Assembly: GCA_029219885.1 (NCBI GenBank)
Contig: JAQXUH010000079.1
Span: 1 to 36,416, forward strand
From: Eubacteriales bacterium
GTDB lineage: Bacteria > Bacillota > Clostridia > Oscillospirales > Acutalibacteraceae
Length of the DNA stretch: 36,416 nt
Direction of reading: 5' to 3'
Shown here: piece by piece, positions 5,189-36,188 of the stretch
Layout: each line of letters starts with the position of its first letter
How positions within the stretch are numbered: position 1 is the stretch's first letter
Program-made: the position numbers and the translations under genes
The notes under the pieces: model-generated
Databases searched by the model: none
Seen by the model: the letters and a program-made list of their open reading frames with translations, nothing else
What the model was told of the DNA's origin: nothing

Positions 5189-5890
5189 ATGGAAATTAAA
5201 TCTCTTGCAACAGAGCTGAATACTAATTCATATCCGGGAAGAGGAATTGTTTTAGGTAAATCAAAGGACGGCAAAAACGCTGTAATCGCATATTTCATTA
5301 TGGGCAGAAGTGTCAACAGCCGTAACAGAATTTTTGAAGAAAACGACAGAGGCGGTATTCGCACTAAGGCTTTTGACGAGTCAAAGATGGAGGACCCGTC
5401 ACTTATTATCTACAATCCTGTTCTTAAGCTTGATGGAAAGACAATAGTTACAAACGGCGACCAAACCGATACTATCTATGATTTTATGAAAGACGGTCAT
5501 TGCTACCGCCACGCTTTGCTTACAAGAGAATTTGAGCCTGACGCACCTAACTACACACCGAGAATTTCAGGCGTTGTTAAGGAAAACGGCGACTATGTTC
5601 TGTCAATTTTAAAGTCAAATATGGGCAAACCTCAATGCCTCAGATATTTCTTTGAATATCCTGCTGAAAGCGGTCTCGGTCATTTTATCCATACATATAG
5701 ATGTGACGGCAACCCTATTCCGTCTTTTGAGGGAGAGCCTACTCCTGTGGAAATTGACGGCGATATCGACAGCTTTACAAATATGATTTGGGATAATCTT
5801 AACGAGGATAACAAGGTTTCTCTCTTTACACGTTTCATCAATCTTGAAGATGGAACTGAGGAAACAAGAATTATAAATAAGAATAAATAA
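5189..5890 (+). CDS. PurO-type IMP cyclohydrolase-like protein
   Basis: YPGRGIVLGKSKDGKNAVIAYFIMGRSVNSRNRIF...IVTNGDQTDTIYDFM resembles archaeal PurO (IMP_cyclohyd family); lies between purN and purD. Confidence 0.8.
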   Translation: MEIKSLATELNTNSYPGRGIVLGKSKDGKNAVIAYFIMGRSVNSRNRIFEENDRGGIRTKAFDESKMEDPSLIIYNPVLKLDGKTIVTNGDQTDTIYDFMKDGHCYRHALLTREFEPDAPNYTPRISGVVKENGDYVLSILKSNMGKPQCLRYFFEYPAESGLGHFIHTYRCDGNPIPSFEGEPTPVEIDGDIDSFTNMIWDNLNEDNKVSLFTRFINLEDGTEETRIINKNK

Positions 5891-5897
5891 CGATTAA

Positions 5898-5923
5898 AAG
5901 GGTGACTTTTATCGGTCACCCTT
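5898..5923 (+). promoter_or_regulatory. 9-bp perfect stem-loop between purO-like gene and purD
   Basis: AAGGGTGAC (5898-5906), loop TTTTATCG, GTCACCCTT (5915-5923); no following U-tract. Confidence 0.55.
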
Positions 5924-5948
5924 AAAGTGTCTTAGGAGGTATATGTAT

Positions 5949-7229
5949 ATGAAAGTATTAGTAGTAGGCGGCGGCGGAAGAGAGCACGCCCTTATCAGAA
6001 AAATCAAGGAGTCCAAAAAGGTTGACAGCGTTGCCTGCTGTCCCGGAAACGGCGGTATTTCATATGACGCAGAATGCTATAACGTTTCCGCCACAGATAT
6101 TGACGGCGTTGTAAATCTTGCAAAGGAGATTAAGGCTGACTTTGTAGTAGTTGCACCTGATGACCCGCTTGTTGCAGGTATGGTTGACGCTCTTAACGAT
6201 GCAGGCTTCAAAACCTTCGGCCCTAAAGCGAATGCCGCAATTATCGAGGGCTCAAAGGTATTTTCAAAAGATTTAATGCTTAAATACAATATACCTACAG
6301 CGGAATATAAGGTTTTTGATAACCCGCAGGATGTTCTTGAATATATTAAAGAGAAGAACGAATTTCCAACTGTAATCAAAGCTGACGGCCTTGCTCTCGG
6401 TAAAGGTGTAATCATTCCTGAAAGTCTTGAAGAGGCTGAAAAGGGCGTTAAGGAGATTATGGAGGATAAAATTTTCGGCGAGTCCGGAAATAATGTTGTA
6501 GTTGAGGAATTTCTCACAGGTCCTGAGGTTTCCGTTTTAGCATTTACCGACGGTAAGTGCGTTAAGCCTATGGTTTCATCAATGGACCACAAGCGTGCAC
6601 TTGACGGCGACAAGGGACTTAATACAGGCGGTATGGGTACTGTTTCTCCAAACCCATATTACACCGACGAGGTTGCCAAGGAGTGTATGGAAAAAATTTT
6701 TATCCCTACAATCGAGGCTATGAACAAAGAGGGCAGAACATTTAAAGGCTGTCTTTATTTCGGCTTGATGATTACTCCAAAGGGACCTAAGGTAATCGAA
6801 TATAACTGCCGTTTCGGTGACCCTGAAACTCAGGTTGTTCTCCCAAGACTTAAAACAGATATTATGGATATCTTTGAGGCAATCAATAACGAAACTCTCG
6901 CAGACCTTGACATTGAGTGGTCAGACGATGCCTGCACCTGCGTTATTATGGCGTCAGGCGGATATCCTAAATCATATCCAAAGGGAATTGAAATTACGGG
7001 ACTTGAGAGCGGACAGCTTGACGGCGTTACTGTATATCACGCAGGTACTGCAATCGAGGACGGAAAGCTTGTTACATCAGGCGGCAGAGTTTTAGGCGTT
7101 ACAGCTCTCGGCAAAACTCTTGACGAGGCACTTGATAAATCATACAAGGCTGTAGAAAAAATCACCTTTGAGGGTGCTCATTACAGAAAAGATATAGGAC
7201 AGAGAGCCCTTAAAGCGTTAGATAAGTAA
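5949..7229 (+). CDS. purD: Phosphoribosylamine-glycine ligase
   Basis: MKVLVVGGGGREHALIRKIKES, KADGLALGKGVIIP, EYNCRFGDPETQVVLPRL. ORF listed from 5943; the MKVLVV ATG is at 5949, after the AGGAGG ribosome-binding site. Confidence 0.95.
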   Translation: MKVLVVGGGGREHALIRKIKESKKVDSVACCPGNGGISYDAECYNVSATDIDGVVNLAKEIKADFVVVAPDDPLVAGMVDALNDAGFKTFGPKANAAIIEGSKVFSKDLMLKYNIPTAEYKVFDNPQDVLEYIKEKNEFPTVIKADGLALGKGVIIPESLEEAEKGVKEIMEDKIFGESGNNVVVEEFLTGPEVSVLAFTDGKCVKPMVSSMDHKRALDGDKGLNTGGMGTVSPNPYYTDEVAKECMEKIFIPTIEAMNKEGRTFKGCLYFGLMITPKGPKVIEYNCRFGDPETQVVLPRLKTDIMDIFEAINNETLADLDIEWSDDACTCVIMASGGYPKSYPKGIEITGLESGQLDGVTVYHAGTAIEDGKLVTSGGRVLGVTALGKTLDEALDKSYKAVEKITFEGAHYRKDIGQRALKALDK

Positions 7230-26553: not shown

Positions 26554-28464
26554 ATGGAAAAAATGATTTTTATCTTGATTGCATTTCCTTTTGTAAGTGC
26601 TTTGCTTCTTAGCATTTTCAAGAATAATGTGGTCAGACAGATTGTCACCTACATCAGCAGTGCCGCAATTATCGGCGTGGCAGTTGCTTTTGCAGTAAGC
26701 TTCTTCTCAGGAGGCAGTCAAGCTGTGGGCTTCTTGACTCACACTCCTGTGATTAACGAGGCAATGCTGGCAATTGAAGTATTTTTAATGGTGCTGGTTT
26801 TTGTGCTGAGCATCAAGTACAAAAAGGTATATATTTCTCTGCTTTCAATTGCACAGACCGGTTTAATGCTTTGGTATGAGCTTGGCGGTCACGCACCTGA
26901 AACAGATACATATAAGATGTACGTTGACCAGCTTACCGTAATTATGGTTCTTATCGTTGCAATTGTCGGTACGCTAATAACAGTTTATGCTTGTGGGTAT
27001 ATGAAAGATTACCACAATCACCATAAAGAATTTATGGACAGAAGAAGATATTTCTTCTCACTCCTTTATGTATTCCTTGGTGCAATGTTCGGTCTCGTTC
27101 TTTCAAACAACATTATCTGGATGTATTTCTTCTGGGAGATTACAAGCGTTGTATCTTTCCTGCTTATCGGATATACAAGAACAGACGAGGCTATCAACAA
27201 CTGCTTTAAGGCTCTTTGGATGAATCTTCTCGGCGGCTGCGGTTTTGCAGTAGGTATTGTTCTTCTCGGTATGAATTTCGGCGTTGAGGACTTCCAGACA
27301 CTTATCAATTTCGACGGAGCAGTAGTTGTAGCACCTGTTATCCTTATTGCGTTTGCAGCTCTTACTAAGAGTGCACAGCTTCCTTTCTCAAGGTGGCTCC
27401 TTGGTGCAATGGTTGCTCCTACACCATCATCTGCACTTCTTCACAGTGCAACAATGGTTAAAGCAGGCGTATATCTTCTTTTGAGATTATCTCCTGTTCT
27501 TCACGGCACATATGCAGGTTCAATGGTAAGTACTATCGGCGGATTTACTTTCCTTATTATGTCAATGCTTGCTATAACAGTCAGCGACGGTAAAAAGGTA
27601 CTTGCTTATTCTACTATCTCAAACCTCGGACTTATTACTGCCTGTGCAGGCGTAGGTGCTGAGGAAACTATTTGGGCAGGTATGTTCCTTCTCACTTTCC
27701 ACGCTGTTTCAAAATCTCTTCTTTTCCAGACTGTTGGTGCTATCGAAAACTCCACAGGCTCAAGAGATATCGAAACAATGCACGGACTTGTTCGCCGTCA
27801 TCCGTATCTTGCTTGGACACTTGTTATCGGTATTGCAGGAATGTTCCTTGCACCGTTTGGTATGCTCTTCTCAAAGTGGGCGGCTCTCAAGGCATTTATC
27901 GACAGCGGCTCAATCTTGCTTGTATTGTTTGTATGCTTTGGTAGTGCAACAACTCTCCTTTACTGGATGAAGTGGATTGCCACCGTTCTCGCATCAAAGA
28001 ACAATGACGTTAAGGCTAAGAACACCACATCTGCAAATCAGTGGGTATCAATTCTTATTCACTCTGCTGCAATGATTCTTCTTTGCTTTACATTCCCATA
28101 TATTTCCGACAACGTAATTATGCCTTACATTGATACTGTGTTTACTAACGCATCTCAGGTAATATCTAAGGATAATATGATAATTATGATGATTATGCTT
28201 GTTGCCATATTCGCTGTTCCGATTGCCGCTTGGGCAGGAGCAAAGCACACAGACTATCGCAAGGCTAACAGATATATCAACGGTGTTAATGCCGGTGACC
28301 AAATGAACTATATTGACTCAGCCGGAGAGAAAAGACGTTTCTTCCTTGCTAACTGGTATATGGAGGATATCTTCGGTGAGAAGAAGCTGTGGCTTCCGTC
28401 AGTCATCATTTCTATTGTTATTATTACAGTAATGACGATAATCGCAGTAGGAGGTGCATTATAA
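26554..28464 (+). CDS. echA: Ech hydrogenase subunit A (NuoL/MrpA-like antiporter subunit)
   Basis: Proton-conducting membrane transporter family: YFFWEITSVVSFLLIGYTRTDEAINNCFKALWMNLLGG, LPFSRWLLGAMVAPTPSSALLHSATMVKAGVYLLLRLSP, LLTFHAVSKSLLFQTVGAIE; first gene of echABCDEF. Confidence 0.92.
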   Translation: MEKMIFILIAFPFVSALLLSIFKNNVVRQIVTYISSAAIIGVAVAFAVSFFSGGSQAVGFLTHTPVINEAMLAIEVFLMVLVFVLSIKYKKVYISLLSIAQTGLMLWYELGGHAPETDTYKMYVDQLTVIMVLIVAIVGTLITVYACGYMKDYHNHHKEFMDRRRYFFSLLYVFLGAMFGLVLSNNIIWMYFFWEITSVVSFLLIGYTRTDEAINNCFKALWMNLLGGCGFAVGIVLLGMNFGVEDFQTLINFDGAVVVAPVILIAFAALTKSAQLPFSRWLLGAMVAPTPSSALLHSATMVKAGVYLLLRLSPVLHGTYAGSMVSTIGGFTFLIMSMLAITVSDGKKVLAYSTISNLGLITACAGVGAEETIWAGMFLLTFHAVSKSLLFQTVGAIENSTGSRDIETMHGLVRRHPYLAWTLVIGIAGMFLAPFGMLFSKWAALKAFIDSGSILLVLFVCFGSATTLLYWMKWIATVLASKNNDVKAKNTTSANQWVSILIHSAAMILLCFTFPYISDNVIMPYIDTVFTNASQVISKDNMIIMMIMLVAIFAVPIAAWAGAKHTDYRKANRYINGVNAGDQMNYIDSAGEKRRFFLANWYMEDIFGEKKLWLPSVIISIVIITVMTIIAVGGAL

Positions 28465-29351
28465 TGGAGATGTCTTGGAGAATTGTTTTAAGTATCGCAG
28501 TGTACCTTGTTTTTGCACCGCTTTTAGGCGGTCTTACATCAGGCTTTGACAGAAAAATTACTGCACGAATGCAGGGCAGACAGGGACCTCCTCTTCTTCA
28601 GCCTTTCTATGATGTAGCAAAGCTTCTTAAGAAAGAAACTGTTGTTGTAAACCACGTGCAGATTTTCTATCTTGCAATTTATCTTGTATTCGTAATTTTC
28701 ACAGGCTGTCTTTTCTTTGGCGGATATGATTTGCTCCTTGTTTTCTTTGCACTTACAACTGCCGATATGTTCCTTGTACTTGCGGCAACAAGCAGCCATT
28801 CACCGTATTCAAATATGGGTGCAAACCGTGAGATGATGCAGATGCTTGCATCTGAGCCTATGATGCTCCTTACAGCAGTGGGCTTCTATCTTGCAACAGG
28901 CTCATTCAAGGTTAAGGATATTGTGGCTCACGACGGCCATATTGCGGCAATGTATCTTCCGGGCGTTTTTGTAGGATTTATTTTCATCCTTACAATTAAG
29001 CTCAGAAAGCATCCGTTCGACCTTTCTACAAGCCACCACGCACATCAGGAAATGGTTAAGGGTATTACAACAGAATTTTCAGGTCAGATGTTTGCAGTAG
29101 TTGAAATTGCACATTGGTATGAAAATATCTTCCTTATGGGTGTAATTGCTCTGTTCTTCTTCAATTCAAATTGGTGGTCTGCAATAGTTGCTCTTGTTGC
29201 TATCGCCGTTTCATATTTCGTATTGATACTTGTTGATAACACTAACGCAAGAATGAAGTGGCAGTTAATGTTCAGAAACTGCTGGATTACTACATTGATT
29301 ATCGGTGCAGTAAACATTTTCATTCTCGATGTATTTGTTAAGGGGGTATAA
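28464..29351 (+). CDS. echB: Ech hydrogenase subunit B (NuoH-like)
   Basis: ORF listed from 28389; the ATG at 28464 overlaps the echA stop. FAPLLGGLTSGFDRKITARMQGRQGPPLLQPFYDVAKLLKKE, LRKHPFDLSTSHHAHQEMVKGITTEFSG. Confidence 0.93.
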   Translation: MEMSWRIVLSIAVYLVFAPLLGGLTSGFDRKITARMQGRQGPPLLQPFYDVAKLLKKETVVVNHVQIFYLAIYLVFVIFTGCLFFGGYDLLLVFFALTTADMFLVLAATSSHSPYSNMGANREMMQMLASEPMMLLTAVGFYLATGSFKVKDIVAHDGHIAAMYLPGVFVGFIFILTIKLRKHPFDLSTSHHAHQEMVKGITTEFSGQMFAVVEIAHWYENIFLMGVIALFFFNSNWWSAIVALVAIAVSYFVLILVDNTNARMKWQLMFRNCWITTLIIGAVNIFILDVFVKGV

Positions 29352-29353
29352 TT

Positions 29354-29791
29354 ATGGCAGATGTTACAAAATCACCTTGGATAATGCACTATGACGGCTC
29401 AAGCTGTAACGGCTGTGATATTGAGGTTCTTGCCTGCCTTACTCCTGTGTATGATGTTGAGCGTTTCGGCGTTATCAATACAGGTAACCCAAAGCACGCC
29501 GACATTCTTCTTATAACAGGTTCTGTAAACGAGCAGAACAAAGATGTTGTAAAACAGATTTACGAGCAGATGACTGAACCTAAGGTTGTTTGTGCAATCG
29601 GTATTTGTGCCTGCAACGGCGGTGTTTTTAAGGACTGCTACAATATTCTCGGCGGTGTTGATAAGGTTATTCCTGTTGACATTTATGTTCCGGGATGTGC
29701 AGCAAGACCTGAGGCTATTATCGACGGCGTTGTTAAATCGTTGGCACTTTTGAAAGAAAAAAGCAAAAAATATCAGGAGGAAAAGAAATGA
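29354..29791 (+). CDS. echC: Ech hydrogenase subunit C (small subunit, NuoB-like)
   Basis: DGSSCNGCDIEVLACLTPVYDVERFGV, GSVNEQNKDVV, AIGICACNGGVF, DIYVPGCAARPEAIIDGV; cluster cysteines present. Confidence 0.94.
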   Translation: MADVTKSPWIMHYDGSSCNGCDIEVLACLTPVYDVERFGVINTGNPKHADILLITGSVNEQNKDVVKQIYEQMTEPKVVCAIGICACNGGVFKDCYNILGGVDKVIPVDIYVPGCAARPEAIIDGVVKSLALLKEKSKKYQEEKK

Positions 29792-30180
29792 GAGAAGAAT
29801 ACAGTCTTGAAACTTTAGAAATTCCTGAGCTTTACAATAAAATGCTTGAAAAGCAGAGAGCAGGCTATCGCCTTGCACAGATTTGTGCAACTGCTTTTGA
29901 GGGCTATAACGAGTTGATTTACTCTGTTGCTTACGGCTATGATTTTGAAAATTACAAAATCATTGTTCCTATTGATACAGAGATTAGTACAATTTCCGAT
30001 TTCTTCCCGTCAGCAATGCTTTACGAGAACGAAATGAAAGAGCTCTTCGGAGTTAAGATTAAATCAATCAATCCTGACTTTAACAACAAATTCTTTAGAA
30101 TCGCTAAGGAAACACCTTTTAAAAAGGAAGTTAAAGACGCAGTTAAGATTGTAAAAAAGGATGAGGAGGCAGCAGAATAA
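29788..30180 (+). CDS. echD: Ech hydrogenase subunit D (NuoC-like)
   Basis: NuoC-like ISTISDFFPSAMLYENEMKELFGVKI; between echC and echE with overlapping starts and stops. Confidence 0.9.
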   Translation: MREEYSLETLEIPELYNKMLEKQRAGYRLAQICATAFEGYNELIYSVAYGYDFENYKIIVPIDTEISTISDFFPSAMLYENEMKELFGVKIKSINPDFNNKFFRIAKETPFKKEVKDAVKIVKKDEEAAE

Positions 30181-31259
30181 TGGGTGAAAAATCAGTAGTT
30201 CCTTTCGGTCCTCAACATCCGGTTCTTCCTGAGCCGATTCATCTTGATTTAGTTCTTGAGGACGAGAAAGTAGTTGAAGCTATTCCGTCTATCGGCTTTG
30301 TTCACAGAGGACTTGAGAAGCTTGCAGAGGTCAGAGATTTTAACGACTATCAGTATGTTATTGAGAGAACCTGCGGTATCTGCTCATTCAAGCATGGTAT
30401 GGCTTACTGCGAGGCAGTAGAAAGAATTTTTGACGCAGAAATTCCTGAAAGAGCACAGTTTCTCCGTACTATCTGGGGCGAGATGAGCCGTATTCATTCT
30501 CATCTTTTGTGGCTTGGACTTCTTGCCGACGCGTTCGGCTTTGATGCACTCTTTATGCAGTGCTGGAGAATGAGAGAAAAGGTACTCGATATGTTCGAGG
30601 CTTCCACAGGCGGAAGAGTAATTTTCTCTGTAAATAAAATCGGCGGTGTCCTTAAGGATATGGACTCCTCTATGCTTAAAAGCTTTGTTGAAATTTTCAA
30701 TTCTATGGAAAAAGATTTGAAAAAAATGACAAAGGTGTTTATGACCGACTATTCTGTTATGTCAAGACTTAAGGGCGTTGGTATTCTCACTAAAGAGGAC
30801 GCTGTCCGTCTTGGTGCAGTTGGCCCAATGGCAAGAGCATCGGGAATTAAGCTTGATATGCGTAAAACAGGCTACGAGGCATATTCTCACGTTGATTTTG
30901 ATATTATCACATCTGAGGACTGCGACGGATACGCAAGATGTCAGGTTCGTATCGGCGAGCTTTTCCAGTCTATCAACATTATAAGACAGCTTGTTGACAA
31001 AATTCCTGACGGTCCTATTGCAAATCAAATTAAGGGTAACCCTGACGGTGAGGCTTTTGCAAGAGTTGAGCAGCCGAGAGGCGAGGCAATCTACTACTGC
31101 AAGGGTAACGGAACAAAGTTCCTTGAAAGAGTCAGAGTACGTACTCCCACATTCACAAATATTGAGGCACTTATACATATTCTTCCAGGTTCTGAGCTTG
31201 CTGATGTTCCGCTTCAGATACTCACAATCGACCCATGTATAAGCTGTACTGAAAGATAA
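30180..31259 (+). CDS. echE: Ech hydrogenase subunit E (NiFe large subunit)
   Basis: GPQHPVLPEPIHL, ERTCGICSFKHGMAYCEAVE (L1 CxxC), terminal DPCISCTER (L2 CxxC). Confidence 0.96.
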   Translation: MGEKSVVPFGPQHPVLPEPIHLDLVLEDEKVVEAIPSIGFVHRGLEKLAEVRDFNDYQYVIERTCGICSFKHGMAYCEAVERIFDAEIPERAQFLRTIWGEMSRIHSHLLWLGLLADAFGFDALFMQCWRMREKVLDMFEASTGGRVIFSVNKIGGVLKDMDSSMLKSFVEIFNSMEKDLKKMTKVFMTDYSVMSRLKGVGILTKEDAVRLGAVGPMARASGIKLDMRKTGYEAYSHVDFDIITSEDCDGYARCQVRIGELFQSINIIRQLVDKIPDGPIANQIKGNPDGEAFARVEQPRGEAIYYCKGNGTKFLERVRVRTPTFTNIEALIHILPGSELADVPLQILTIDPCISCTER

Positions 31260-31273
31260 GGAGGTAAAAAGCT

Positions 31274-31855
31274 ATGGGAATTATGGATTTTACACCACAG
31301 GTACTTAAAAATCTTTTTTCAAAGCCTGCTACCTCAAATTATCCTTTTGAGCCGAGAAAGTATCCTGAAAAGAGCAGAGGTCATGTTGAAATCAATATTG
31401 ACGACTGTATTATGTGCGGTCTTTGCTCACGTAAATGTATGTCAGGTGCTATAACAGTTGACAGAAAAACAAAGACTTGGTCTATCGAGAGAATGGGCTG
31501 TGTTCAGTGCGGCAGCTGTGTTACTGCTTGCCCTAAGAAGTGTCTTTCAATTGTTCCCGGTTATTCCGAGCCGTCAACAGAAAAGACAGTTGATTCATAC
31601 AGTCAGCCTATTCCGGAAACTCCGGCAGGCAAGGTTACTCCTGATATGACAAAATGTATTCTCTGCGGTCTGTGTGCAAGGAAATGTCCGCAGGAATGTA
31701 TTACTGTTGACAGAACAGGCGAGAAAACCTGGACTATTGACCGCGACAAGTGCGTTCAGTGCGGTGCTTGTGTTGATGCCTGCATCAAGTTTAAGGCACT
31801 TTCTATGACCGAAGACGACGGCGAAAAGGGAACAGCAGTATTTCATAAGGAATGA
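31274..31855 (+). CDS. echF: Ech hydrogenase subunit F-like polyferredoxin with four 4Fe-4S motifs
   Basis: CIMCGLCSRKC, CVQCGSCVTACP, CILCGLCARKCP, CVQCGACVDAC; directly follows echE. Confidence 0.88.
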   Translation: MGIMDFTPQVLKNLFSKPATSNYPFEPRKYPEKSRGHVEINIDDCIMCGLCSRKCMSGAITVDRKTKTWSIERMGCVQCGSCVTACPKKCLSIVPGYSEPSTEKTVDSYSQPIPETPAGKVTPDMTKCILCGLCARKCPQECITVDRTGEKTWTIDRDKCVQCGACVDACIKFKALSMTEDDGEKGTAVFHKE

Positions 31856-31856
31856 T

Positions 31857-33944
31857 ATGACTTTAAGATTAAACTTTAACGGAATTGTTCAGGGCATCGG
31901 CTTCAGACCTACTGCTCAAAGACTTGCACTTGAATATAATCTGTGCGGTCAGGTGAAAAATTCCGGCGGAAATGTTGAAATTTTAGTTACAGGTAATTCA
32001 CAGGCGTTGGATATTTTCGTCCAACGTCTTGTTTCTATGTTTGAAATTAAAAGTTATCAAAGTGAATCGGTTGAGGATATGTCCTTTGACGGCTTTAAGA
32101 TTGTCCATTCATCAAGGGATAATGCTCTGCCTTTTATCACTCCTGATATTGCTACCTGCAAGGACTGCGAAAGAGAGCTTAGAAACAGTGGTGACAGAAG
32201 ATACCGCCATCCGTTTATCAGCTGTGTAAACTGTGGTCCGAGATATACGATTATAAATTCGCTCCCTTACGATAGGGAAAATATTACTATGTCACCTTTT
32301 GAAATGTGCGATGATTGCCGTAAGGAATATACAACACCTGAAAACAGACGATGCCACGCACAGACAATAGCCTGCAAGGAATGCGGACCTGAAACAAATA
32401 TTTCTATCGAAAAAGCAGTTGAAATTTTAAAAGACGGCGATATTCTTGCTATTAAGGATATCGGAGGTTACCACCTTGCTTGCAAAGCCGAAAGCATAGA
32501 TAGCGTAAAAAAAATCAGAGCTCTTAAAGGCAGAGAGGAAAAGCCTTTTGCGGTGATGTTTTCTTCTGTTGATGAAATAGAGAAATACTGCTTTGTTAAT
32601 GATAAGGAAAGGGAACTTTTAACCTCTCCTGCAAGACCTATTGTTCTCCTTGACAAGAAGAAAGATTTTGATACTTCCGTCTGCGGTGAAAGTGATTATA
32701 TAGGTGCTTTCCTGCCTTGTAATCCTATGCAAATTATGATTCTTGATTCTGTGTCACCGCTTGTTATGACAAGTGCAAATGTCAGCGGTGAGCCGATTAT
32801 TACTGACGATAGGAAAATTGAAAAATTCGGCGTTGCCATTCTTTCTCACGACAGAGAAATTCTTACGCCTCTTGACGACAGTATTGTTAAGGTGACCGCA
32901 GGCAGAACGCAGTTTATAAGACGTGCCAGGGGATATGTGCCTTTGGCGATTGAAATTGACAAAACCGCAAAAAAAGACACACTCTGCCTTGGCGGAGATT
33001 TAAAATCAGCCTTTGCTTTTCATAGGGATAAATATGTTTTTATGAGTCAGCATTTCGGCGATTTAGAGGATGCCGACGCTTTTGACTGCTACAAAAAGAA
33101 CATCAGCCGTTTTGCAGATTTGCATTCATTCAAGACGGAAAAAATCGTTGCCGACAGCCACCCGAACTACTACTCCTCAAATCTTTATAACAACGATATG
33201 ACAGTTCAGCATCACAAGGCACACGTTGCGTCTGTTATTGCCGAGCATAGGCTGAAGGGTGATGTTTTAGGCTTTGCATTTGACGGCACAGGCTACGGTG
33301 ACGATGGTGCAGTATGGGGCAGCGAGGTTTTTCTCTTTAACAGCGGTGAAAAATCTTTTGAACGCCTTGAGCATTTGCAGTATGTTAAGATGATTGCCTC
33401 TGACGAAATATCAAAAAATGCCGATTTGGCACTTGACTGCTACTTAGGCGGTAACGAGCTTATCGACAAGGCAATTGAAAATAATATAAATACAGTAAAT
33501 TCCTCAAGTATGGGACGGCTTTTTGACGCTGTTTCAGCTTTGCTTGATATAAAGCACTATAATAATTTTGAGGGCGAATGTGCCGTTTCTCTTGAGAGTG
33601 TTGCAAAAAGAGCCAAAAAGTATTATCCTATAAGCGTAAGCCTTAACCCAAAGGAGATTTTGACCGAAATAAAAAATTCTCCTTGCAGTAAAGAGGAGAC
33701 GGCTTTGGGCTTTCATATGATGATTTGCCGTTTGATTTCAGAGCTTTGTGAAAAATACAGAAACATTTACGGCGTAAATCAGATTGCTCTTTCAGGCGGA
33801 ACGTTTAATAATAAAATAATTACAGAAAATACAATAAAGCTTCTTGAGAAAAGTGGCTTTGATGTTTACATAAACGAGCTTGTTCCTTGCGGAGACGGCG
33901 GACTTGCTCTCGGTCAGGCATATATTTCAGCGTTGGAGGGATAG
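31857..33944 (+). CDS. hypF: [NiFe] hydrogenase maturation carbamoyltransferase HypF
   Basis: Acylphosphatase FNGIVQGIGFRPTAQRLA, zinc-finger CKDCERELRNSGDRRYRHPFISCVNCGPRYTI / CDDCRKEYTTPENRRCHAQTIACKECGP, VQHHKAHVASVIAEH, GFAFDGTGYGDDGAVWG. Confidence 0.96.
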   Translation: MTLRLNFNGIVQGIGFRPTAQRLALEYNLCGQVKNSGGNVEILVTGNSQALDIFVQRLVSMFEIKSYQSESVEDMSFDGFKIVHSSRDNALPFITPDIATCKDCERELRNSGDRRYRHPFISCVNCGPRYTIINSLPYDRENITMSPFEMCDDCRKEYTTPENRRCHAQTIACKECGPETNISIEKAVEILKDGDILAIKDIGGYHLACKAESIDSVKKIRALKGREEKPFAVMFSSVDEIEKYCFVNDKERELLTSPARPIVLLDKKKDFDTSVCGESDYIGAFLPCNPMQIMILDSVSPLVMTSANVSGEPIITDDRKIEKFGVAILSHDREILTPLDDSIVKVTAGRTQFIRRARGYVPLAIEIDKTAKKDTLCLGGDLKSAFAFHRDKYVFMSQHFGDLEDADAFDCYKKNISRFADLHSFKTEKIVADSHPNYYSSNLYNNDMTVQHHKAHVASVIAEHRLKGDVLGFAFDGTGYGDDGAVWGSEVFLFNSGEKSFERLEHLQYVKMIASDEISKNADLALDCYLGGNELIDKAIENNINTVNSSSMGRLFDAVSALLDIKHYNNFEGECAVSLESVAKRAKKYYPISVSLNPKEILTEIKNSPCSKEETALGFHMMICRLISELCEKYRNIYGVNQIALSGGTFNNKIITENTIKLLEKSGFDVYINELVPCGDGGLALGQAYISALEG

Positions 33945-33946
33945 AT

Positions 33947-34159
33947 ATGTGTGTTGCAGCACCGGGTAAGGTTGTGGAAATAAACGGCGACACAGCAGTT
34001 GTTGAGTACAATTCAAATAAGGTTAATGCCAATAAGGGTATAGTTGATGTTAAGGTAGGCGACTATGTTCTTGTTCACGCAGGTCTTGTTATTCAGGTAA
34101 TTGACGAAAATGAGGCTTTGGCAATGCAGGAGCTTTTCTCCGAGCTTGAGAATTTGTAA
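33947..34159 (+). CDS. hypC: Hydrogenase assembly chaperone HypC
   Basis: MCVAAPGKVVEINGDTAVVEYNSNKVNANKGIVDVKVGDYVLVHAGLVIQVIDENEA; ORF listed from 33887, true ATG at 33947. Confidence 0.95.
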   Translation: MCVAAPGKVVEINGDTAVVEYNSNKVNANKGIVDVKVGDYVLVHAGLVIQVIDENEALAMQELFSELENL

Positions 34160-34160
34160 T

Positions 34161-35198
34161 ATGGATATAAAAGAGATAGTAAAATTTTTAAGTGAATATG
34201 ACGGCAGGGAATTGAGACTTATGGAGGTCTGCGGTACTCATACGGCGGCCATCAGGGAAAACGGAATACCGTCACTTTTAAGCCATAAAATCAAGCTTAT
34301 CAGCGGTCCCGGATGTCCTGTCTGCGTCACTCCTGCAAGCTATATTGACAGGCTTTGTGACCTTTCTTTGCAGGACAAAACCTGCATTGTTACATTCGGC
34401 GATATGATACGTGTTCCCGGCTCAAAAGAGGCTTTGCAGAACGTGAAGTCAAAAGGCGGTAATGTTAAAATGGTCTATTCGCCATTTGAAATTATTGACC
34501 TTGCAAAAGGGGACAGGGACACAATTTTTATTTTTGCCGCTGTTGGTTTTGAAACTACAACGCCTATTTACGCTGTGCTTTTAGACAAGATAATCAGCGA
34601 GAATATTGAAAATATAAAATTTCTTACCGCACTCAAAACTATGCCGGCGGCTATTGATGTCCTTTGCAGTGACGCAGATAATAAAATCGATGGCTTTATC
34701 GCTCCGGGACACGTCAGCGTTATAACAGGTGCAGACGCTTTTAAGCCTTTGGCGGAAAAATACAGCCTGCCTTTCGTTGTCAGCGGTTTTAAGGGCGAGG
34801 AGCTTTTGGCGTCAATCTACGCTCTTGTTAAATTGCAGGGACAAAGTAAAGTCCTGAACCTTTACAAGTCGGCAGTAGGCGACAGGGAAAACGAAAAGGC
34901 AAAAGCTCTTGTGGATAAATATTTCACTCCGTCCGCTGCCTATTGGCGAGGTATGGGAAGTATTGAAAATTCAGGACTTGAGCTGAAAGAAGAATACAGC
35001 CGATTTGACGCAGGAAGTAAAAATCTTACGGAAGACTTGCCTGCCAACAAAGGCTGTTCCTGTGCAGAGGTTATAACAGGCAGGAAGTCGCCGTTTGATT
35101 GTCCGCTTTTTGCAAAGGTCTGCAATCCTGAAAATCCACAGGGTGCCTGTATGGTGTCAGGCGAGGGTGCTTGTTTCAATTATTTTATAAACAGATGA
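34161..35198 (+). CDS. hypD: Hydrogenase formation protein HypD
   Basis: LMEVCGTHTAAIRENGIPSLL, LISGPGCPVCVTPASYID, FGDMIRVPGS, AVGFETTTPIYA, IDGFIAPGHVSVITG; ORF listed from 34101, likely ATG at 34161. Confidence 0.95.
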   Translation: MDIKEIVKFLSEYDGRELRLMEVCGTHTAAIRENGIPSLLSHKIKLISGPGCPVCVTPASYIDRLCDLSLQDKTCIVTFGDMIRVPGSKEALQNVKSKGGNVKMVYSPFEIIDLAKGDRDTIFIFAAVGFETTTPIYAVLLDKIISENIENIKFLTALKTMPAAIDVLCSDADNKIDGFIAPGHVSVITGADAFKPLAEKYSLPFVVSGFKGEELLASIYALVKLQGQSKVLNLYKSAVGDRENEKAKALVDKYFTPSAAYWRGMGSIENSGLELKEEYSRFDAGSKNLTEDLPANKGCSCAEVITGRKSPFDCPLFAKVCNPENPQGACMVSGEGACFNYFINR

Positions 35199-35207
35199 GG
35201 ACTTAAT

Positions 35208-36188
35208 ATGAAAATTACATTAGCTCACGGTAGCGGCGGAAAATCTACAAACGATTTAATTAACGCTGTTTTTGCAAAGCATTTTTCAAATCCTATACTC
35301 AATATGATGGAGGATAGTGCTGTGGTTGACGGCAGTCAGAAAATCGCTGTCACTACCGATTCCTTTGTAATTACTCCGCTGATTTTTAAAGGCGGAGATA
35401 TCGGCAGGCTTTCCGTCTGCGGTACTGTCAATGACCTGCTTATGCGAGGTGCGATGCCTAAATATATCACATCTGCATTCATAATCGAAGAGGGTGCCGA
35501 TACGGAAACTCTCGAGCAGATTGTTATCTCAATGGCTGAAACTGCAAAAGAAGCAGGCGTTACGGTTATCTGCGGTGACACAAAGGTTATTGAGGGTAAC
35601 GGCGGAATTTACATTAATACCACAGGCGTTGGCTTTGTAAAATACAGCACAAATATCGTTTCAACAAATATTCTTGAGGGTGACGCTGTAATTGTCAGCG
35701 GTAATTTAGGCGACCACCACGCAACTGTTTTATCTCATCGTATGGGCATTGAAAATAACATTCAGTCCGATAATGCACCTCTCGGTGAAATGGTGAGAAA
35801 TATGCTCAAAGGCGGTATTGAGCTTCATTGTATGAGGGATATTACACGAGGCGGTCTTGGTACTGTTCTTAATGAGCTTGCCGACGCCTCATCTGTTAAT
35901 ATCGAAATCGAAGAAAGCAAAATTCCTGTCAGCGACGAGGTGCGTGCTTTTTCAAAAATTCTCGGTCTTGATATTCTTCATATGGGTAACGAGGGAAAGC
36001 TTGTTGCCTTTGTTCCTGAAAGTCAGGCACAGCAGGCAGTTGATATAATCAAAAGCAGTAAATACGGCGAAAATGCGGCAGTTGTGGGTAAGGTCTGTAA
36101 CGGCAGTGGCGTAACTATGCTTACTCCTTTAGGGGGAAAGAGGAATGTAACTGTCCTTTACGGAGAGGGACTGCCGAGAATTTGCTGA
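35208..36188 (+). CDS. hypE: Hydrogenase expression/formation protein HypE
   Basis: LAHGSGGKSTNDLI, DSAVVDGSQKIAVTTDSFVITPLIFKGGDIGRLSVCGTVNDLLMRGA, GDTKVIEG, C-terminal PRIC. Confidence 0.96.
   Translation: MKITLAHGSGGKSTNDLINAVFAKHFSNPILNMMEDSAVVDGSQKIAVTTDSFVITPLIFKGGDIGRLSVCGTVNDLLMRGAMPKYITSAFIIEEGADTETLEQIVISMAETAKEAGVTVICGDTKVIEGNGGIYINTTGVGFVKYSTNIVSTNILEGDAVIVSGNLGDHHATVLSHRMGIENNIQSDNAPLGEMVRNMLKGGIELHCMRDITRGGLGTVLNELADASSVNIEIEESKIPVSDEVRAFSKILGLDILHMGNEGKLVAFVPESQAQQAVDIIKSSKYGENAAVVGKVCNGSGVTMLTPLGGKRNVTVLYGEGLPRIC

Follow-up and report, generated by a model that had tools for sequence, protein, structure and literature searches.

The window analysed here, that is the whole stretch of 36,416 nucleotides, holds a complete echABCDEF operon at positions 26554-31855, followed directly by hypF, hypC, hypD and hypE, all on the forward strand. 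The six Ech core subunits (two membrane, four hydrophilic) belong to assigned Pfam families, their genes are contiguous, and the order echA-B-C-D-E-F-hypF-C-D-E is syntenic in relatives. EchA (26554-28464; PF00361/PF00662, and synteny in relatives) is a NuoL/antiporter-like membrane subunit of 636 aa and EchB (28464-29351; PF00146) a NuoH-like membrane subunit; EchC (29354-29791; PF01058) is the NuoB-like small subunit with the proximal [4Fe-4S] cluster, and EchD (29788-30180; PF00329) is a NuoC-like protein of 130 aa, unfused here. EchE (30180-31259; PF00346/PF00374) is the [NiFe] large subunit, whose translation contains both Ni-binding CxxC pairs, CGIC and DPCISC. The last gene, echF (31274-31855), is the subject of this analysis. 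Among the [NiFe] maturation genes, hypF (31857-33944) scores above the cut-off of TIGR00143, while hypC, hypD and hypE (33947-36188) were placed from the list of open reading frames and synteny and named from established sequence features. Judged by its genes, the operon encodes an Ech-type energy-converting [NiFe] hydrogenase, and its six-subunit layout suggests subgroup 4e.

Architecture of EchF

EchF is a protein of 193 aa, and both translation and a motif scan find in it four perfect CxxCxxCx3C motifs, at residues 45, 76, 128 and 160. C45 and C128 lie at positions 31406 and 31655, exactly where a preliminary description of this DNA had put them when it read the gene as an EchF-like subunit with an internally duplicated two-cluster unit. 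Motif 1 ends in Cys-Met and motif 4 in Cys-Ile instead of the usual Cys-Pro. Residues 1-36 (31274-31381), which comprise the N-terminal helix and an LFSKPAT..YP stretch, are shared with two-cluster EchF proteins. Module 1, the canonical EchF dicluster domain, spans residues 37-96 (31382-31561, motifs at 31406 and 31499), and module 2, the extra dicluster domain, spans residues 119-180 (31628-31813, motifs at 31655 and 31751). Between them lies a linker (residues 97-118; 31562-31627), noted earlier as Pro/Ser-rich and in fact rich in Pro, Ser and Thr, which is the least conserved region of the protein and is modelled with lower pLDDT.

The two modules are homologous, as the duplication reading implied: their BLOSUM62 alignment score is 150, and 500 shuffles gave a mean of -8, an SD of 11 and a maximum of 30, which rules out a repeat arisen by chance. 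At the DNA level they are 64% identical.

The first half of the protein matches known I-type subunits. Residues 1-98 fit the EchF N-terminal profile with an E-value of 6.7e-54 (this sequence was itself among those in the profile), and this half aligns end to end with two-cluster EchFs from other loci and also with MbhN in the solved structure of membrane-bound hydrogenase (6cfw). Because of these matches, module 1 together with the N-terminal helix is assigned as the canonical EchF, and module 2 as an addition. A canonical EchF consists of the N-terminal helix region and one dicluster domain, both of which are present here, and has exactly two [4Fe-4S] motifs; this one has four, and it is therefore classed as a variant EchF, a subunit of an Ech-type [NiFe] hydrogenase with four predicted clusters. 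A separate polyferredoxin subunit of the CooF, HycB or FwdF type is ruled against by the single reading frame that includes the EchF N-terminus.

An AlphaFold model of EchF built with 26 sequences has a mean pLDDT of 70 and a less confident linker; it is of moderate confidence and carries no information on the placement of module 2 relative to module 1. The preliminary description had left room for one half with misplaced ligands, and the spacing of the cysteines turns out to be correct in both halves, each of which is modelled with the strand/helix pattern of a ferredoxin. Foldseek matches the model to the I-subunits of complex I and Mbh and to polyferredoxins. The best PDB matches by both sequence and fold are polyferredoxins such as FwdF and MvhB, which are likewise built of tandem dicluster modules; these differ in that they are not complex I-type subunits and have no EchF N-terminal part, and the match is limited to the repeated cluster motifs.

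Distribution within the genus

Eighty genomes of the genus were surveyed, of which 34 have an EchF match; all 34 were read, and two loci are cut by contig ends, which leaves 32 readable ones. EchF has four or six motifs in 29 of these, so the possibility that the four-motif form might be the described norm of the lineage applies by half: it is the norm, but we found no description of it in the open-access papers searched. The commonest arrangement, in 25 of the 32 loci, is a four-motif EchF alongside an unfused EchD, as far as the contig includes echD. Three loci have a six-motif EchF of 322-327 aa; one (L048) carries a module of the same kind on EchD as well as the four-motif EchF; two (L049 and L050) combine a two-motif EchF with a module on EchD instead; and only one (genome G273) has a two-motif EchF and no extra module anywhere. 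An extra module on either EchF or EchD is thus found in 31 of the 32 readable loci. The four-motif EchF is also present in Eubacterium coprostanoligenes ATCC 51222, which is a named, sequenced strain and carries no label as a metagenome bin; since the same architecture recurs in this and many other genomes of the genus, an artefact of a single assembly is ruled out.

In L049 and L050 the EchD protein is 206-210 aa long: an ordinary EchD sequence is followed, after a short linker, by a dicluster module that resembles module 2 of EchF, and EchF consists of its canonical half only. A tree of EchE, EchC and EchB joins these two as sister species with a support of 100/100; on the same tree two changes account for the EchD fusion and six for the expanded form of EchF. 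In the module tree, which is weakly supported, the EchD-fused modules fall among the second modules of the genus's EchFs. The model of the EchD fusion, with a mean pLDDT of 42, is not informative.

Distribution beyond the genus

Outside the genus EchF is mostly a two-cluster protein as read from frames and motifs, and the expansions are patchy. In a class sample of 391 genomes, for which frame length alone was used where the sequence was not fetched, 34 of the 35 other genomes with an EchF match have frames of 122-178 aa and are counted as two-cluster, the sole exception (G1036) having six motifs. In the phylum sample the strong Ech-type matches have frames of 106-170 aa. Expanded forms make up seven of the 48 EchF-type matches in Lachnospiraceae (four motifs in six of them, six motifs in the seventh), and two Negativicutes have an EchF with four motifs. 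In the Dialister family, ech is carried by three of 12 genomes and EchF is expanded in all three, to 6, 10 and 16 motifs. The 16-motif EchF (L037:5360-8212, 950 aa) directly adjoins echABCDE on its downstream side; with eight modules it is the longest of a series in which the extra modules number from none to seven. The 10-motif protein (L099, from genome G726, 620 aa) and the 6-motif protein (L100, from genome G727, 359 aa) belong to close relatives two modules apart. Within the 10-motif gene two units lie in tandem as a 414-bp repeat with 93% matches, and for this reason the expansion there is judged recent, with the reservation that near-identical repeats, as in the 10- and 16-motif genes, are easily misassembled.

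In many two-cluster EchFs (L117, L120-L124, L127 and L135-L141) the C-terminal end is a long tail rich in Ala, Lys and Glu, and the C-terminus of L118, which has no such tail, carries a different kind of short repeated unit. The C-terminus of EchF thus seems open to varied additions.

Origin of module 2 and selection on it

All 16 ligand cysteines of the four-motif EchF are invariant in 22 species or loci of the genus. Across 22 loci the lowest pN/pS, 0.137, is that of module 2; module 1 has 0.168, the N-terminus 0.28 and the linker 0.30. These values point to purifying selection on module 2 as strong as on module 1; together with the invariant cysteines, this rules out a decaying second copy.

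A strand signature containing Trp, located between the two motifs, is present in 58 of 58 EchF first modules and 66 of 66 extra modules and is absent from four other ferredoxin domains of the host genome, which places module 2 within the EchF type. Against these four domains module 2 scores 73-98, compared with 150 against module 1; the higher score and the signature held in common with module 1 disfavour the capture of an ordinary ferredoxin gene, and module 2 is most simply seen as a duplicate of module 1. The duplication is old, being common to almost the whole genus, which agrees with the earlier statement that it was unlikely to be very recent. The module tree (57 columns) is weak, and constraining the extra modules to a single clade does not make it significantly worse (p-AU 0.74), so one origin of them all is compatible with the data; separate duplications in the different lineages are not established.

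Function of the extra module

In Ech, Mbh and complex I, electrons go from EchF to EchC and on to EchE, and Ech enzymes use ferredoxin to gain energy close to what thermodynamics allows. On balance we favour the reading that the extra EchF module is a two-cluster ferredoxin domain on a probably flexible tether, working as a docking or relay unit. The tether is supported by the low conservation of the linker and by its lower AlphaFold confidence. Module 1 would occupy the EchF site and supply the Ni-Fe centre of EchE by way of EchC; module 2 would swing at the electron-entry face of the complex, accept electrons either from soluble ferredoxin in its reduced form or straight from an enzyme that reduces ferredoxin, and hand them over to module 1, thereby raising the local supply of electrons. 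The complex would then hold five [4Fe-4S] clusters, one in EchC and four in EchF, in place of the usual three. The extra modules of the genus have an average net charge of +1.6, compared with -6 for the free 2[4Fe-4S] ferredoxin of the host genome, and for this reason module 2 resembles an acceptor for soluble ferredoxin more than a substitute for it, although charge is a weak argument. The module is not essential to the reaction itself, since G273 and most other Ech enzymes lack it.

The preliminary description had offered two functions, a docking module and a longer electron wire, of which the first is now favoured and the second weakened. A fixed wire, in which module 2 sits rigidly on module 1 and shifts the entry of ferredoxin outwards by two clusters, would fit the presence, in a single chain, of two further clusters in the same type of fold. 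It also has a parallel in Thermoanaerobacter kivui Ech2, which purifies with a HycB2 subunit and has seven predicted clusters, beyond the basic three (PMC9356269); separate cluster subunits, such as this HycB2 or those of formate hydrogenlyase, may act likewise. However, the module is found on EchD or EchF, its number varies from none to seven and the linker drifts, being the least conserved region, which makes a mobile docking or relay unit likelier than a rigid extension, and we regard the fixed wire as unlikely.

We consider it improbable that module 2 is an adaptor which binds one specific enzyme, for example pyruvate:ferredoxin oxidoreductase or a bifurcating hydrogenase, and channels its electrons without free ferredoxin. 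Possible partners are present in the genome as PorD-like, HydB-like and RnfB-like ferredoxin proteins, and Coo hydrogenases (CooMKLXUH) offer a precedent, binding the polyferredoxin CooF in a tight complex with CO dehydrogenase (PMC5861303); against this, the ech operon has no partner-enzyme gene, either fused or adjacent, and the genome does have a free 2[4Fe-4S] ferredoxin. The Ala/Lys/Glu-rich tails that replace modules on many Lachnospiraceae EchFs, and the one member of the genus without a module (G273), would suit a non-catalytic passenger on a C-terminus that tolerates additions, serving stability or nothing at all. Such a passenger should hardly be kept in 31 of 32 loci with all its ligand cysteines invariant and a pN/pS no higher than module 1's, and of the explanations considered it seems to us a very improbable one. 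Returning to the tethered docking or relay unit, the range of modules in the relatives suggests that the enzyme can lengthen or shorten its own electron antenna. We put forward more tentatively, as a conceivable generalization, that the antenna of Ech in gut bacteria is variable in copy number and relocatable, EchF-type modules being gained, lost, multiplied and moved between EchF and EchD so as to tune the capture or storage of low-potential electrons, with a parallel expansion in Mrp-linked Mbh-type hydrogenases.

Comparison with known systems

The enzyme has the same six subunits as the six-subunit Ech of Methanosarcina barkeri (EchABCDEF), and module 1 corresponds to the two-cluster form of EchF found class-wide; the differences are the four cluster motifs of EchF in place of two, and the EchD module of three relatives. 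In T. kivui Ech2, for which ferredoxin-dependent H2 formation coupled to ion transport has been shown and the electron pathway has been called unknown (PMC9356269), the extra clusters lie on a separate subunit, whereas in the present enzyme EchF itself carries them, or EchD in relatives. CooMKLXUH likewise has a ferredoxin-type protein on an Ech-type hydrogenase, but there it is a protein of its own, CooF, which makes the link to CO dehydrogenase; here the module is fused, and no CO dehydrogenase gene lies beside the ech operon in the window. Modules fused to EchF or EchD are not described in the accounts of T. kivui Ech2 (PMC9356269) or of Coo (PMC5861303), nor did we find a multi-module EchF in the open-access literature, a search outside which most subscription papers fall. 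As far as that literature goes, an enzyme with a multi-module EchF appears to be a previously undescribed, new form of Ech-type [NiFe] hydrogenase. In rumen butyrivibrios EchD and EchF are reported as the subunits most often missing (PMC4478896), and unusual architectures of these two proteins might contribute to such apparent absences.

How electrons enter Ech enzymes is unsettled, as noted for T. kivui Ech2 (PMC9356269), and the series of modules bears on this question: relatives whose EchF or EchD bears 0, 1, 2, 4 or 7 extra modules constitute a natural experiment on ferredoxin docking domains. It is also of relevance to H2 production by common, little-studied gut bacteria.

EchF-type modules outside Ech operons

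In Mrp-linked Mbh-type clusters of gut Clostridia the MbhN-like subunit is expanded to a polyferredoxin with 8 motifs (L053:7629-6616 with L134:4677-3595; L055:6685-7707; L133:2373-3452) or 14 motifs (L039:4786-6699); L053/L134 also includes the large subunit of the hydrogenase as well as hyp genes. Like EchF, the subunits of L053/L134, L055 and L133 have a NuoI-like N-terminal domain and extra modules with the Trp signature, but the hydrogenase is of another type, with Mrp genes present and a large subunit 41% identical to EchE. To our knowledge, no account of such an Mrp-linked Mbh-type hydrogenase with a polyferredoxin MbhN-like subunit has been published. A single EchF-like dicluster domain occurs in frames of 268-287 aa in Selenomonadaceae (L040-L044, around 5500-6430), with no Ech genes nearby. 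A dicluster module with an EchF-like Trp signature also forms the C-terminus of a molybdenum hydroxylase that resembles xanthine dehydrogenase (L056:9294-6322, minus strand; 990 aa in the gene call).
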